Assembly (NCBI GenBank): GCA_021847345.1
Contig: JAJZTW010000028.1
Location: forward strand, 1 to 45,568
DNA length: 45,568 nt
Source of the DNA: Pseudomonadota bacterium
GTDB lineage: Bacteria; Pseudomonadota; Gammaproteobacteria; Burkholderiales; Burkholderiaceae_C
Direction: 5' to 3'
Both the position numbers and the translations under genes were made by a program. Positions 10,588-14,895 of the stretch are shown here, one piece after another; position 1 is the first letter of the stretch, and each line of letters opens with the position of its first letter. The notes below the pieces were generated by a model, which had not been told where the DNA came from, ran no database searches, and was given only the letters and a program-made list of their open reading frames with translations.

Positions 10588-12159
10588 ATGCCAGGAAAAC
10601 TCCGATCTGCTTTACAGACAAGTGCGGCCTCACTCGCTGCCGCGGCCATGCTCAGCGCCTGCGGCGGCGGCTCGGGCTCTTCGCCGGGCGGCAACCTCGC
10701 TTCGGGCGCCGTTGCCTCGGGCATCGTCGCCGCCGGCGCTCCGGTGGCCGGGGCCACGCTGCTCGCCATCGGCCCGAATGGGCAGAACTGCGGCAGCGCC
10801 ACGACGAACAGTCAAGGTGCCTACACGATGAGCCTGACTTGCTCCAGCGCTCCGGTGGTGCTGAGCCTTCTCAACGGCGGCCCCGGAGGAATTCCGCTCG
10901 ACGCCGTGTACCTGCCGGCCGGCGGTGGCCAGGCGCTGCCCGCCAGCTTCACCGTCAATGTCGACCCGCTGACCACGCTGATCACCTATGACGCGCTCGG
11001 CCAGCTCGGTGTGAACGCCAGCTCGAACCTGCAGGTCGTGGCGCTGTCGTCGTCGCTGATGACCGCAAGCGCCTATGCCGCCGCCACGCAGACCGTGCTG
11101 AGTGCGCTCGCGCCGGTATTGGCGAACTTCGGCGTGCAGACCGCCAATTTCGACCCCGTCTCGTCCCCCTACCCGAGCCCGGGCACGGGAGTCGACGCGC
11201 TGTTCGACACCTATCCCGAATCCGCACCCAGCGCTGCCTCGGTCGAACTGGGCAGCGCCTCGAGCCCGCTGCTCCAGGTCGCCCTTCCCGAGACACCTGG
11301 CGCGCAGAGCACGCTGGGCGGCAGCGCCGTGCAGCTCGGCAGTGCCGATTTTCCCTACGCGGGCTACACGGTCTATGCCGTGCAGACCCTGGCGTCCGCC
11401 GCGCCGGGCCAGCCCCAGGCGGGCGCGGGCCAGGTGAACGCCGCCTCGGCCACGCAGGGCTCGCTGAGCCTGGGATCGTCGTTCACGTACCTCGGAACCC
11501 GATCGCTGCCGGCCTTGCCGCTGACGCTGTCCGCGGACCCGGTCACGCAGGCCGCCGCCAGCGACGGCACGGCAGCACCGATGCTCGACCCGGGAACCAA
11601 CGGGGGCGTCGTGCAGATCTGCCAGCCCGCGTTGTTCCCTGGGGCCTTGTTCCCCACGACGACCGCGTTCTACATCGCGGTGGCCAACGGTGGCAGCGGC
11701 ACCGGCGTGTCGTCGCATTTCCTGCCCTTGAGCACGACCGCGCAGATCTACGCCGCGATTGGTGGCAAGCCGCTGTTCGCGATGTTCAACTGCGCCTACA
11801 GCGCGGGCAACTCCGCGGGCACGGCCACGCCGTCGACGTCGACCAACGATTACGCGACCATCACCAGCGGCGGCAACCTGCTCTACAACGCTCTCGGCGC
11901 GAGCGGCAATCCGGTGCTCGACGTACCGGCGGCCAACATCGATCTCGCGCTGACGGCGGCGGGCGCTCCCATCGCGAGCAACGGCTCCTTGACGTTTCCG
12001 GGCAACGCGCAGACCACCGTTTCATCGGGACGCGAGTACTGGCACGCCTGGAGTTTCGTCGACCCCTTGGGCCAATCGCGGGTACTGATCATCAAGCAGT
12101 TGATGTTCAACGGGAGCGTTGCCGGACTCGGCATCGTGGAAGCCTACATCTCGCAGTGA
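10588..12159 (+). CDS. Large secreted lipoprotein of unknown function
   Basis: 523 residues. The N-terminus MPGKLRSALQTSAASLAAAA, then MLSAC, is a signal peptide with lipobox Leu-Ser-Ala-Cys followed by a Gly/Ser linker. Residues about 45-90 (GAPVAGATLLAIGPNGQNCGSAT, split by a turn) resemble a carboxypeptidase-regulatory-like or Ig-like beta domain. The remainder is rich in Ala, Ser, Gly and Thr with few charges, typical of surface or periplasmic proteins. No catalytic motif was found. ATG 10588 is favoured because the signal peptide begins there; its ribosome site is weak. It converges on the metallophosphoesterase gene. Confidence 0.65.
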   Translation: MPGKLRSALQTSAASLAAAAMLSACGGGSGSSPGGNLASGAVASGIVAAGAPVAGATLLAIGPNGQNCGSATTNSQGAYTMSLTCSSAPVVLSLLNGGPGGIPLDAVYLPAGGGQALPASFTVNVDPLTTLITYDALGQLGVNASSNLQVVALSSSLMTASAYAAATQTVLSALAPVLANFGVQTANFDPVSSPYPSPGTGVDALFDTYPESAPSAASVELGSASSPLLQVALPETPGAQSTLGGSAVQLGSADFPYAGYTVYAVQTLASAAPGQPQAGAGQVNAASATQGSLSLGSSFTYLGTRSLPALPLTLSADPVTQAAASDGTAAPMLDPGTNGGVVQICQPALFPGALFPTTTAFYIAVANGGSGTGVSSHFLPLSTTAQIYAAIGGKPLFAMFNCAYSAGNSAGTATPSTSTNDYATITSGGNLLYNALGASGNPVLDVPAANIDLALTAAGAPIASNGSLTFPGNAQTTVSSGREYWHAWSFVDPLGQSRVLIIKQLMFNGSVAGLGIVEAYISQ

Positions 12160-12177
12160 ACCGTGGCGGCGCCGGGC

Positions 12178-13467
12178 TCACGGCCGTGCGCCGCGCGCTG
12201 CCAGACGCACGCGGGTGATCTCCGACGGCGCCCCGAATCTCTTGGGAGGCCCCCAGTAGCCCGTGCCGCGGCTGACATAGACCTGCAGTTGCTCGACACG
12301 GTGCAGTCCCGCCGTGAACGGCTGCTGCAGGCCGACGAAATGGTTCCACGGCCAGAACTGCCCGCCGTGGGTATGCCCGCTGAGCTGCAGGTCGAAGCCT
12401 GCACGCGCGGCCAGCTGCGACGAGCGCGGCTGGTGCGCGAGCAGGATGCGCGGCAGGCCCGGCGGGCTGCCCTCGAGCGCCTGGAAAGGGTCGCTGCGGT
12501 GTCCCGGGTCGAAGGCCTGGCCATGCGGGTCGGTCACTCCCGCCAGCACGAATTCGGCGCCGTCGTGCGAGACCACGACATGGGTGTCGAGCAGACAGCG
12601 CAGGCCGAGGCGTTCGAACTCGGCCAGCCAGGGGCCGGCTCCGGAGTAGTACTCGTGGTTGCCGGTGACCAGCCAGGCCCCGTGACGCGCCCGCAGCTCG
12701 CCCAGCGGGGCCGTGTGCTCGCGCAGCCGCTCCACCGCGCCGTCCACCACATCCCCGGTGATGGCGACGAGGTCGGGCTGCAGGGAGTTCACGCGCTCGA
12801 CGATGGCGCGCACCTTCGGAGCCTTGATGGTCGGTCCGACGTGGATGTCGCTGATCTGGACGATGGTGAAGCCGTCGAGTCCGGGCGGCAGTTCCGGGAT
12901 TTCGACACGCACGTCGACCACCCGCGCCACGCGTCGCGCATTGAACAGCCCGACCAGCGACACGAGCAATGCGGCCGCCGGCACCGCGATGGCGCTGGGA
13001 CGCGCCCAGTGGCCGGTGGCGGGAAGCAGCAGCGCCAGCTCGCGCAGCACGGTCAGCACCAGCGTGGTGGAAAACAGCCCCAGCGCGAAAAAGCCGGCCC
13101 AGGCTGCCTTGTCCCAGGCGTCCCCCGAACGAAGGTGGCTCACGAGAAAACGCAGGGCCGCCCCAAGTTTTCTCGATCCCCGCGGGGGGCGGGCTGGGCG
13201 CAGCCCGGCCCTGGGGGCGCTCTCAAGCAATCGCCGGGCCGCCCCAAGATTGCTTGACCCCCGCGGGGGGCGGGCTGGGCGCAGCCCGGCCCTGGGGGCC
13301 CTCAGGAACCCGAGCGGGATCAGCAGCGCCGAAAGGCCCAGCAGCATTGCGCCGGCGAAGCGGGCGGCCGGCCCGTAGCTCGGCAGCAGCTGCGCACCGA
13401 TGTACACGTGCAGCAGCGCGAGCACCGGCCACACGCGCAGCAGCAGGCGCTTGAGGCGGGCGCGCAT
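12178..13467 (-). CDS. Membrane-anchored calcineurin-like metallophosphoesterase
   Basis: 429 residues. The N-terminal half has several hydrophobic helices (about 10-50 and 120-170). The C-terminal half is a YkuE/YaeI-like phosphoesterase with the metal-binding motifs in order: VQISDIHVG (D-x-H), AITGDVVDG (GDxxD), VTGNHEYY (GNHE) and LSGHTHGGQFWP (GHTH). Substrates in this family include phospholipid pyrophosphates and nucleotides; none is evident here. Between helix groups lie about 55 extra residues (APRAGLRPARPPRGS repeated twice) encoded by two tandem palindromic DNA elements inserted in frame. The gene starts 21 bases after the FAD-linked oxidase stop and is the last gene of the leftward module. 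Confidence 0.88.
   Translation of the reverse strand: MRARLKRLLLRVWPVLALLHVYIGAQLLPSYGPAARFAGAMLLGLSALLIPLGFLRAPRAGLRPARPPRGSSNLGAARRLLESAPRAGLRPARPPRGSRKLGAALRFLVSHLRSGDAWDKAAWAGFFALGLFSTTLVLTVLRELALLLPATGHWARPSAIAVPAAALLVSLVGLFNARRVARVVDVRVEIPELPPGLDGFTIVQISDIHVGPTIKAPKVRAIVERVNSLQPDLVAITGDVVDGAVERLREHTAPLGELRARHGAWLVTGNHEYYSGAGPWLAEFERLGLRCLLDTHVVVSHDGAEFVLAGVTDPHGQAFDPGHRSDPFQALEGSPPGLPRILLAHQPRSSQLAARAGFDLQLSGHTHGGQFWPWNHFVGLQQPFTAGLHRVEQLQVYVSRGTGYWGPPKRFGAPSEITRVRLAARGARP
13143..13303. repeat. Tandem pair of multi-hairpin palindromic elements inside a coding region
   Basis: Two units with an 81-base period. Each has a stem-loop with a 15-base loop (13143-13175 and 13224-13256), then a nearly identical 45-base block containing CCCCGCGGGG and the hairpin CGGGCTG-GGCG-CAGCCCG. 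The first stems are CGAGAAAAC/GTTTTCTCG and CAAGCAATC/GATTGCTTG: three of nine positions differ, yet every change is matched on the opposite arm. The loops differ at one base. The period is a multiple of three, so the host gene stays open. Similar GC-rich palindromes are, to my knowledge, dispersed in Burkholderiales genomes. Confidence 0.85.
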
Positions 13468-13488
13468 GGTCGGCGAGATCGCGCCAGG

Positions 13489-14895
13489 TCAGGCGAAGAT
13501 CTTGCCCGGGTTCAGGATACCCGCCGGGTCGAGCGCCTGCTTGAGCGCACGCATCAGGCCGATGGCGTCGTCGCCGGCCTCCTCGCGCAGGAAACCCTGC
13601 TTGTGCAGGCCCACGCCGTGCTCGCCGGTGCAGGTGCCGCCCAGGCGCAGCGCGCGCCGTACCAGGCGCGCGTTGAGATCCTCGGCGAGCTCGCGCTCGG
13701 CCGGCAGTTGCGGGTCGATCAGGTAGCCGACGTGGAAATTGCCGTCGCCGACATGCCCGACGAGGAAATACGGCAGCCCCGCGGCGTCGGCCTCGGCCAC
13801 GGTTTCGTTGATGCTCTCGGCCAGGCGCGAGATCGGCACGCAGGTGTCGGTGGTCACGCAGCGGCAGCCCGGGCGGGTCTGCAGCGCCGACAGGTAGGCG
13901 TGGTGCCTCGCCTTCCACAGGCGCGTGCGCTCCTCCGGAGTGTCGGCCCAGGCGAAGTCCGAGCCGCCATGCGCGGTGGCCACCTCCTGCGTGGTCTGCG
14001 CCTGCTCGCGCACACTGCCGGGCGTGCCGTGGAATTCCATCAGCAGCAGCGGCTGCTCCGGCAGACCGAGATGGTCGTGCGCGTTGACGGCGCGCACGGC
14101 ATGCGCGTCCATCAGTTCGCAGCGCGCGATCGGCACCGCCGACTGGATGAGCTCGATGGTGCAGTTCACCGCACTGGCCACGTCGGCGAAGGAGCACACC
14201 GCGGCCGCCACGGCCTGCGGCTGCGGGTGCAGGCGCAGCGTGATCTCTGTGACGATGCCCAGCGTGCCCTCGCTGCCGACGAACAGGCGCGTGAGGTCGT
14301 AGCCGGCGCTGCTCTTGCGCGCGCGCGTGCCGGTACGCACCACGCGGCCGTCGGCCAGCACCACGGTCAGCGCCAGCACGTTCTCGCGCATGGTGCCGTA
14401 GCGAACCGCGTTGGTGCCGCTGGCGCGCGTGGCCGTCATGCCGCCCAGGGTCGCGTCGGCCCCCGGATCGATGGGAAAGAACAGTCCGCTGTGGCGCAGT
14501 TCCTCGTTGAGCTGCAGGCGCGTGACCCCGGCCTGCACGGTGGCCAGCATGTCCTCGGCGGCGACGTCGAGAACCTGGTTCATGCGCGTCAGGTCCAGCG
14601 TGATGCCGCCCTGCACGGCCAGCAACTGGCCCTCGAGCGACGATCCGGCGCCGAAGGCGATCACCGGCACGCCGTGTCCGGCGCACAGCCGGACCGCGTC
14701 GGACACGTCGGAGGTACTCGCGCAGAACACCACGCCGGACGGCGGCTCGACGTCGAACGGGGATTCGTCGCGACCATGCTGCTCGCACACCGCCCGCGCG
14801 GTGCTGAAGGACTCGCCGAAGCGTTGCGCCAGGTCTTGCAGCAACTGCGCCGGAGCCTCGCGCCGGAGCCCGGCGGACGGAGTGCGTTGGTTCAT
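13489..14895 (-). CDS. FAD-binding oxidase, D-lactate dehydrogenase (cytochrome)/GlcD type
   Basis: 468 residues. The FAD-binding PCMH domain is clear: VIAFGAGSSLEGQLLAVQGG, then DPGADATLGGMTATRASGTN and YDLTRLFVGSEGTLGI. The C-terminal FAD-oxidase domain contains LVGHVGDGNFHVGYL and CTGEHGVGLHKQGFL, whose His residues line the active site for 2-hydroxyacids. Family members oxidise D-lactate, glycolate or other 2-hydroxyacids and pass electrons to cytochrome c or quinone. It follows the liv transporter in the same direction and may process a 2-hydroxyacid imported by it. ATG 14895 has AGGA seven bases upstream. Confidence 0.88.
   Translation of the reverse strand: MNQRTPSAGLRREAPAQLLQDLAQRFGESFSTARAVCEQHGRDESPFDVEPPSGVVFCASTSDVSDAVRLCAGHGVPVIAFGAGSSLEGQLLAVQGGITLDLTRMNQVLDVAAEDMLATVQAGVTRLQLNEELRHSGLFFPIDPGADATLGGMTATRASGTNAVRYGTMRENVLALTVVLADGRVVRTGTRARKSSAGYDLTRLFVGSEGTLGIVTEITLRLHPQPQAVAAAVCSFADVASAVNCTIELIQSAVPIARCELMDAHAVRAVNAHDHLGLPEQPLLLMEFHGTPGSVREQAQTTQEVATAHGGSDFAWADTPEERTRLWKARHHAYLSALQTRPGCRCVTTDTCVPISRLAESINETVAEADAAGLPYFLVGHVGDGNFHVGYLIDPQLPAERELAEDLNARLVRRALRLGGTCTGEHGVGLHKQGFLREEAGDDAIGLMRALKQALDPAGILNPGKIFA

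Follow-up and report, generated by a model that had tools for sequence, protein, structure and literature searches.

Two palindromic units lie side by side, in frame, inside a metallophosphoesterase gene of a Pseudomonadota bacterium assigned to the Burkholderiaceae_C (assembly GCA_021847345.1, contig JAJZTW010000028.1, positions 1 to 45,568; this whole stretch of 45,568 nucleotides is called the window below). Their stems differ in sequence and are both perfectly paired. The locus therefore raises the question of how the units came to lie in this gene, and of what maintains the pairing of stems whose sequences vary. The features concerned are the following.

12178..13467, minus strand: gene of 429 codons for a metallophosphoesterase whose N-terminal part is hydrophobic; the insert contributes 54 codons (open reading frame list, Pfam PF00149, insert-free orthologues)
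13138..13218, plus strand: repeat unit 1, 81 bp (repeat search)
13219..13299, plus strand: repeat unit 2, 81 bp (repeat search)
13143..13175, plus strand: hairpin of unit 1 with arms at 13143-13151 and 13167-13175 around the core GGGCCGCCCCAA of 13155-13166 (sequence, folding)
13223..13257, plus strand: hairpin of unit 2 with a stem of 10 bp, whose arms at 13223-13232 and 13248-13257 surround the core of 13236-13247 (sequence, folding)
13176..13218, plus strand: GC-rich second half of unit 1 (sequence, folding, unit comparison)
13257..13299, plus strand: GC-rich second half of unit 2, beginning with a base that is paired in the stem (sequence, folding, unit comparison)
13139..13142, plus strand: left CTCA, the target tetranucleotide (empty site GGCTCAGG in the related genomes G015, G009 and G014)
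13301..13304, plus strand: right CTCA, repeating the target tetranucleotide (sequence, empty-site comparison)

A repeat search resolved positions 13138-13299 into two tandem units of 81 bp, 89% identical, with a unit GC content of 76.5%. The first-pass annotation of this DNA had described two 81-base units with differing, perfectly paired 9-base stems between 13143 and 13303; the units are real, and only their bounds were a few bases off. The arms are CGAGAAAAC/GTTTTCTCG in unit 1 (13143-13151/13167-13175) and, over nine bases, CAAGCAATC/GATTGCTTG in unit 2 (13224-13232/13248-13256), with three differences per arm, all compensated on the opposite arm. In this layout, a stem of 9 or 10 bp surrounds GC(A/C)-GGGCCGCCCCAA, with 15-17 bases between the arms, and folding indicates that further hairpins are possible in the GC-rich second half. 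Folded as single-stranded DNA and compared with dinucleotide shuffles, units 1 and 2 reach z scores of -3.27 and -3.73 on the plus strand, and of -2.40 and -2.54 on the minus strand. Rfam contains nothing matching positions 12000-14500 of the window at E values up to 1.

The host protein is matched by Pfam Metallophos (PF00149) over residues 201-368 and by two NCBIfam models, both below their cut-offs. The insert begins in phase at gene offset 168 and the reading frame from 13467 to 12178 is uninterrupted, as had been claimed in the first pass; the units sit in frame because 162 bp preserve the frame and because one reading frame of the unit is open, and the gain, put there at about 55 residues, is of 54. 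A protein search matched the host protein in 33 of 60 genomes (source included). In near relatives the matches form two adjacent blocks, residues ~1-56 and ~108-112 onward, and all 16 orthologues that were aligned continue without the repeat; this alignment is badly gapped in the insert columns and the exact junction was taken from the site comparison with relatives. In G015, G009 and G014 the distance from flank to flank is 162 bases shorter than in the source genome and the empty site reads GGCTCAGG, where the source genome has GGCTCA to the left and CCTCAGG to the right of the insert. The part encoding the N-terminus is 97.6% identical in G015, with 2, 0 and 2 mismatches at codon positions 1, 2 and 3, and the part encoding the C-terminus 93.3% identical (10, 6 and 48 mismatches). 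Since these substitutions are mostly at third positions, the gene appears to be conserved at the protein level.

Many open frames among the copies suggested that in-frame insertion is frequent, a possibility rejected by scoring both flanks of each site for coding. Among the copies listed, and after 11 sites close to the edge of a contig or locus had been dropped, both flanks are coding in one open frame at 1 of 60 sites, which is that of the window. Three other copies (L094, L097 and L105) are called inside a gene but have a negative coding score in the upstream flank, and look like overlong open reading frame starts. The copy in the window is an exception, as the element does not usually insert within protein genes; a conserved enzyme extended by 54 residues is thus the rare outcome.

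The repeat is not a chance sequence, because the 12-mer core GGGCCGCCCCAA occurs 118 times in the source genome (58 and 60 by strand), versus 0 and 1 occurrences of a reversed control pattern. From these, 100 of the 118 core places were listed and read, together with three further stretches. Among the copies listed, the family of the window comprises 94 units in 63 arrays, of which 37 are single, 21 double and 5 triple. Several source contigs end near a copy (L016, L030, L074, L084, L117, L118), and the repeat may break the assembly, its copy number being then underestimated. A core match is present in 45 of 60 genomes (source included), and the reversed control gives 0-4 matches per genome, so that low core counts carry little meaning. 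At least 10 core matches were counted in 17 of 27 genomes of the same genus, where the number ranges from 0 to 57 versus 118 in the source genome, in 4 of 8 genomes belonging to other genera of this family, and in 1 of 24 genomes of other families.

When named genomes were scanned with GCHGGGCCGCCCCAAG, at least 119 stretches were obtained, of which 80 loci were read. Their titles are mostly betaproteobacterial, some stating only Proteobacteria or Pseudomonadota, and include Polaromonas, Delftia, Acidovorax, Rhodoferax, Rhodocyclaceae and Achromobacter; Bordetella is absent from the titles of these 80 loci. The DNA of the window is itself probably betaproteobacterial. In a locus titled Gammaproteobacteria (L131), 10 of 12 arm positions are paired. 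In the outsiders Pseudomonas (L135), Planctomycetota (L141) and Chloroflexi (L156), no more than 4 of 12 are, and these look like chance matches. Related sequence was also found in three plasmid records, a Burkholderia arboris replicon and two uncultured-bacterium plasmids, one of which, pAKD16, is typed IncP. Phage records gave no match to the repeat.

Covariation was measured on copies fetched by the core, with the arms read in a fixed register, over the 8 pairs beyond the innermost one and with no pairing filter, against shuffles in which the relatedness between copies is retained. Among the named loci listed, 89 copies with 83 distinct arm pairs are Watson-Crick paired at 69.4% of positions, versus a shuffle mean of 33.4% (maximum 41.4%) and 29-36% for slid arms, and all four Watson-Crick pairs occur at each of the 8 positions. 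The corresponding values are 87.0% versus 56.1% (maximum 69.5%) for 25 distinct arm pairs from both families of the source genome, 85.9% versus 43.9% (maximum 64.1%) for 16 from genome G026, and 66.8% versus 34.3% (maximum 45.1%) for 23 from other genera. The 9 distinct arm pairs of G015, G009 and G014 reach 91.7% versus 69.5%, which barely exceeds the shuffles (maximum 90.3%). Stem covariation is above shuffles in all five sample sets. The first-pass proposal that the stem is selected as a structure agrees with these data, as pairing is retained while the stem sequence varies (69% versus 33% in shuffles), and the shape of the hairpin, rather than the sequence of its stem, seems to be what counts. 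Integron attC sites, in which a variable stem region is free in sequence and paired, provide an analogy for such a stem.

The conservation of the tip was tested apart, on copies fetched by a second-half sequence, CCCCTCGGGGGGCAGCG. It was found at 36 places in a set of 10 genomes, 7 of which contain it. These places gave 30 distinct copies, none of which departs from the 16-base core by more than 3 mismatches (14, 9, 5 and 2 copies with 0, 1, 2 and 3, respectively), and their stems differ. A nearly fixed tip on a stem that is paired but free in sequence suggests recognition by tip and shape, and constitutes a sharp handle for finding a factor that reads the hairpin. The copy of plasmid pAKD16 (L353:1480-1556) has kept a paired stem, CAAGCAAA/TTTGCTTG, and the second half, with a different loop.

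The stems of the source genome were counted in the family of the window only, excluding units with fewer than 5 of 9 pairs and a second family whose arms start with CC or AC. Among the copies listed, the inner 8 pairs are perfect in 80 of 94 units and derive from 7 left-arm alleles, of 27, 21, 19, 5, 4, 3 and 1 units; the top three account for 67. By their inner 8 bases there are 6 alleles, the two commonest differing at the outermost base alone. The 15-mer GTTTTCTCGACCCCC, which represents the commonest arm, occurs 47 times in the source genome versus 5 times in the other genomes of the family, where it is found in 3 of 79. From these few alleles and from the burst of the 15-mer it follows that the stems are inherited alleles that have spread, and the simplest account of the two stems of the window is that both are alleles which already existed. 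Pairing is imperfect in the other 14 units. Four of these (L109, L025, L076, L123) are hybrids with arms from two known alleles, an arrangement expected from recombination inside the 12-base core. The stem is absent in 2 of the 104 distinct core rows read (L018 and L115).

The target was deduced from 14 source sites compared with stretches of G015, G009 and G014 that came from five long source-stretch searches and from the protein search; the sites of L287 and L288 lie outside these. A readable empty site was found in G015 at 7 of the 14, with CTCA at the junction in 5 and TCAG without CTCA in 2. Those with CTCA are the site of the window (GGCTCAGG), L283:6382 (ATCTCAGA), L286:6913 (ATCTCAAT), L286:11776 (GCTCTCAGG) and L284:7800 (GCCTCACC, left side only). 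Those without it read GGTCAG (L283:1824) and TGTCAG (L283:16597), and the source copies there are also degraded. One site of the second family (L285:10611) is occupied in both genomes, and the remaining 6 are unreadable or without a matching stretch. Among the copies listed, the stem is preceded by CTCT at 23 and by CTCA at 17 of 52 sites, that is at 40 of 52, versus 0.28% of positions, and none of these 52 junctions has GTAG. At the right end, CTCA lies within 9 nt in 38 of the 49 arrays listed, where 1.2% is expected by chance per interval searched. This right-end CTCA coincides with the exact TGA stop of a gene on the opposite strand in 25 of the 49 arrays; for comparison, the other noncoding CTCA/TGAG found in 174 kb are exact TGA stops in 33 of 157 cases. 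The stop survives the insertion because the right-end CTCA exactly overlaps it.

The pAKD16 copy ends at the annotated stop of sdpA, which is TAA there, between convergent genes. For the named loci, placements are rough, the gene caller having been trained on source-genome frames with third-position substitutions alone, and 29 of the 80 were left out because the second half was unusable or an edge too near; of the 51 placed, 21 lie between two opposite-strand genes and 11 are called inside a gene. In a comparison with CGTC tags, some copies of G026 have GGGGGCCGTC at their right end, versus CTCT/CTCA in the family of the window. Copies from other genera (L249, L252, L256 and L257, in genomes G034 and G030) have ATGAGC-like or CATG-like strings on both sides, near start codons, so that the choice of target may differ by subfamily.

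The best explanation of this locus, with a probability of about 70%, is a miniature mobile hairpin repeat whose tip and shape are read in trans and which is joined after CTCT or CTCA. That the unit moves is argued by the empty sites, the allele burst and the plasmid copies. With its fixed tip, its paired stem free in sequence and its GC-rich half forming more hairpins, the ~81-bp unit is too short to encode its own mover. A machinery acting in trans would recognise the tip together with the shape of the hairpin, the DNA being probably single-stranded at this step, and would join the copy after CTCT or CTCA in the one orientation observed, the tetranucleotide being then found at both ends. Because CTCA is TGAG on the other strand, many insertions would fall on TGA stops and leave them intact, and the repeat would therefore accumulate at gene ends. 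The clean empty sites supply the target, and the CTCA/TGA overlap is a simple reason for this harmless accumulation. Two units with different stem alleles would have ended up in this way, in frame, in the phosphoesterase gene. Against the mobile repeat stand a mover that was not found, the pAKD16 copy, which keeps the stem and not the tip, the 6 of 14 sites without a readable junction and the one occupied in both genomes, and the 14 imperfectly paired units.

Pairing could also have been produced by the insertion itself. According to the first-pass annotation, insertion copies the flanking bases in inverted form and thereby gives each copy a private stem. The great diversity of stems across genera, with 83 distinct arm pairs in the 89 named copies listed, is compatible with such a process. 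In the source genome, however, the stems are not private but mostly fixed, 7 left-arm alleles accounting for 80 of 94 units, and the empty site of the window in its three relatives holds neither arm, nor any trace of one; the model is rejected for the source genome and is highly improbable. Alternatively, pairing could be kept by mutation, template switching between the arms (quasipalindrome correction) copying each change across. This process is described for imperfect inverted repeats and agrees with the small proportion of single-mismatch stems, imperfect units being a minority of 14 in 94. It leaves unexplained the fixed tip and the large stem differences between genera, and 4 units have remained hybrids of two alleles; as the source of the covariation, it is improbable.

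The same covariation would be expected from selection on RNA, if the repeat were a functional 3'-UTR or intercistronic hairpin protecting or ending transcripts, with mobility as a secondary property. Arrays that start exactly at a gene stop in one orientation (25 of the 49 listed), hairpins that fold better than shuffles and the 21 of 51 roughly placed named copies between opposite-strand genes all point in this direction. Much of the position is nevertheless accounted for by the right-end tetranucleotide, the copy of the window lies within a protein gene, copy number varies from 0 to 57 within the genus besides the 118 found here, and no Rfam family matches; an RNA element is accordingly unlikely. 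As for the mover, a non-palindromic four-base target used in one orientation is typical of the single-strand systems of IS200/IS605-type or RAYT enzymes, and a REP sequence whose mover is a Y1 transposase (RAYT or another), since lost or encoded in the unassembled 7% of the genome, has thus to be considered. A PF01797 (Y1/RAYT) gene is present in 32 of 60 genomes searched. It was not found in the source genome, whose 93% completeness leaves room for a missed mover gene, and it is absent from 7 of the 9 genomes (source included) with at least 25 core matches, G013 and G014 having one each. Moreover, the repeat is absent within ~4 kb of all 12 Y1 loci compared in the family, 5 of which have core-like strings with at most 2 mismatches and, by eye, without paired arms, and the GTAG tag is missing. 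A link with RAYT is therefore unsupported for Pfam-detectable Y1 genes, and a mover of this type is quite unlikely. Within the mobile repeat reading, a tentative possibility is a transposition system blind to the stem, in which a protein or an RNA, other than a Pfam-detectable Y1 enzyme, would read only the GGGCCGCCCCAA tip of a hairpin with a paired stem and join the copy at CTCT/CTCA, gene stops serving as safe harbours.

By size, GC content, layout and hosts, compared by description, the repeat is most probably the Beta-proteobacterial repeat element (BRE), a REP-like miniature element. According to the excerpts of Hot et al. 2011 (PMC3110155), who named it, BRE measures ~90 bp (75-91), has a GC content of 63.7-78.9% and a variable copy number of at most 29, occurs in tandem with no or few bases between copies, is mostly intergenic with some copies in coding sequence, and is hosted by Polaromonas, Delftia, Acidovorax, Rhodoferax and Bordetella. 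The repeat of the window falls within these ranges (81 bp, 76.5% GC), and shares the tandem layout (63 arrays among the copies listed, 26 of them double or triple), the first four host genera (among the loci listed) and the mostly intergenic location (1 of 60 listed sites within a coding frame). It differs by its 118 core copies versus at most 29; a fixed tip with covarying stems and a CTCT/CTCA target are not mentioned in the same excerpts, and no description of them was found in the titles and abstract beginnings of the open-licence literature. The repeat is thus a probable member of BRE, for which the evidence on anatomy and movement is new. BRE-like repeats are present in many betaproteobacterial genera, yet a single paper was found to name them in the open-licence literature searched.

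Other families were compared through excerpts of their descriptions. Bor-1 of Bordetella, with a 93- to 117-nt model (Cozzuto et al. 2008, PMC2267715), is likewise a structured, intergenic stem-loop family of more than 100 copies, and its relation to BRE and to the window repeat is a guess. The CGTC REPs, including the Rickettsia palindromic elements, have a stem of 8-9 bp and a loop of 4-5 bases, and carry at one of their ends a tag reading CGTC (TGTC, CCTC) according to the descriptions (Di Nocera et al. 2013, PMC3733652). They resemble the present repeat in being palindromic, in having no dedicated transposase and in having some copies in frame inside genes, and differ from its stem of 9-10 bp with 15-17 bases between the arms, its 17-base tip in the window and, for the family of the window, its CTCT/CTCA junction. 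GTAG REPs and BIMEs, associated with RAYT (PMC3733652), share with it the location at gene ends, the arrays and element ends that supply stop codons; here the GTAG tag is missing, the junction being CTCT/CTCA at 40 of the 52 sites listed, and no association with Y1/RAYT was found.

The source genome also contains variants of the repeat. At L091 (contig C68 near 24617), adjacent units share the second-half variant GCCCTGCCC and differ in their stems, which hints at local duplication and stem exchange. Exchange between neighbouring units was not significant as a general process, 179 of 1000 nulls reaching the observed value with 4 usable pairs. The second family (L073, L095, L098; contigs C15, C71, C74) shares the core and has other stems, CCTCCTGCC/GGCAGGGGT and ACTCCCACC/GGTGGGGTG, and another second half; it forms BIME-like inverted pairs ~210 bp apart between convergent genes. 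Finally, a longer variant (L087, L107, L113) is extended by ~80 bases (ATGAGGCCGGACCAGCTGCTG...) that separate the first hairpin from the usual second half, the next hairpin being found 160-162 bp further on.
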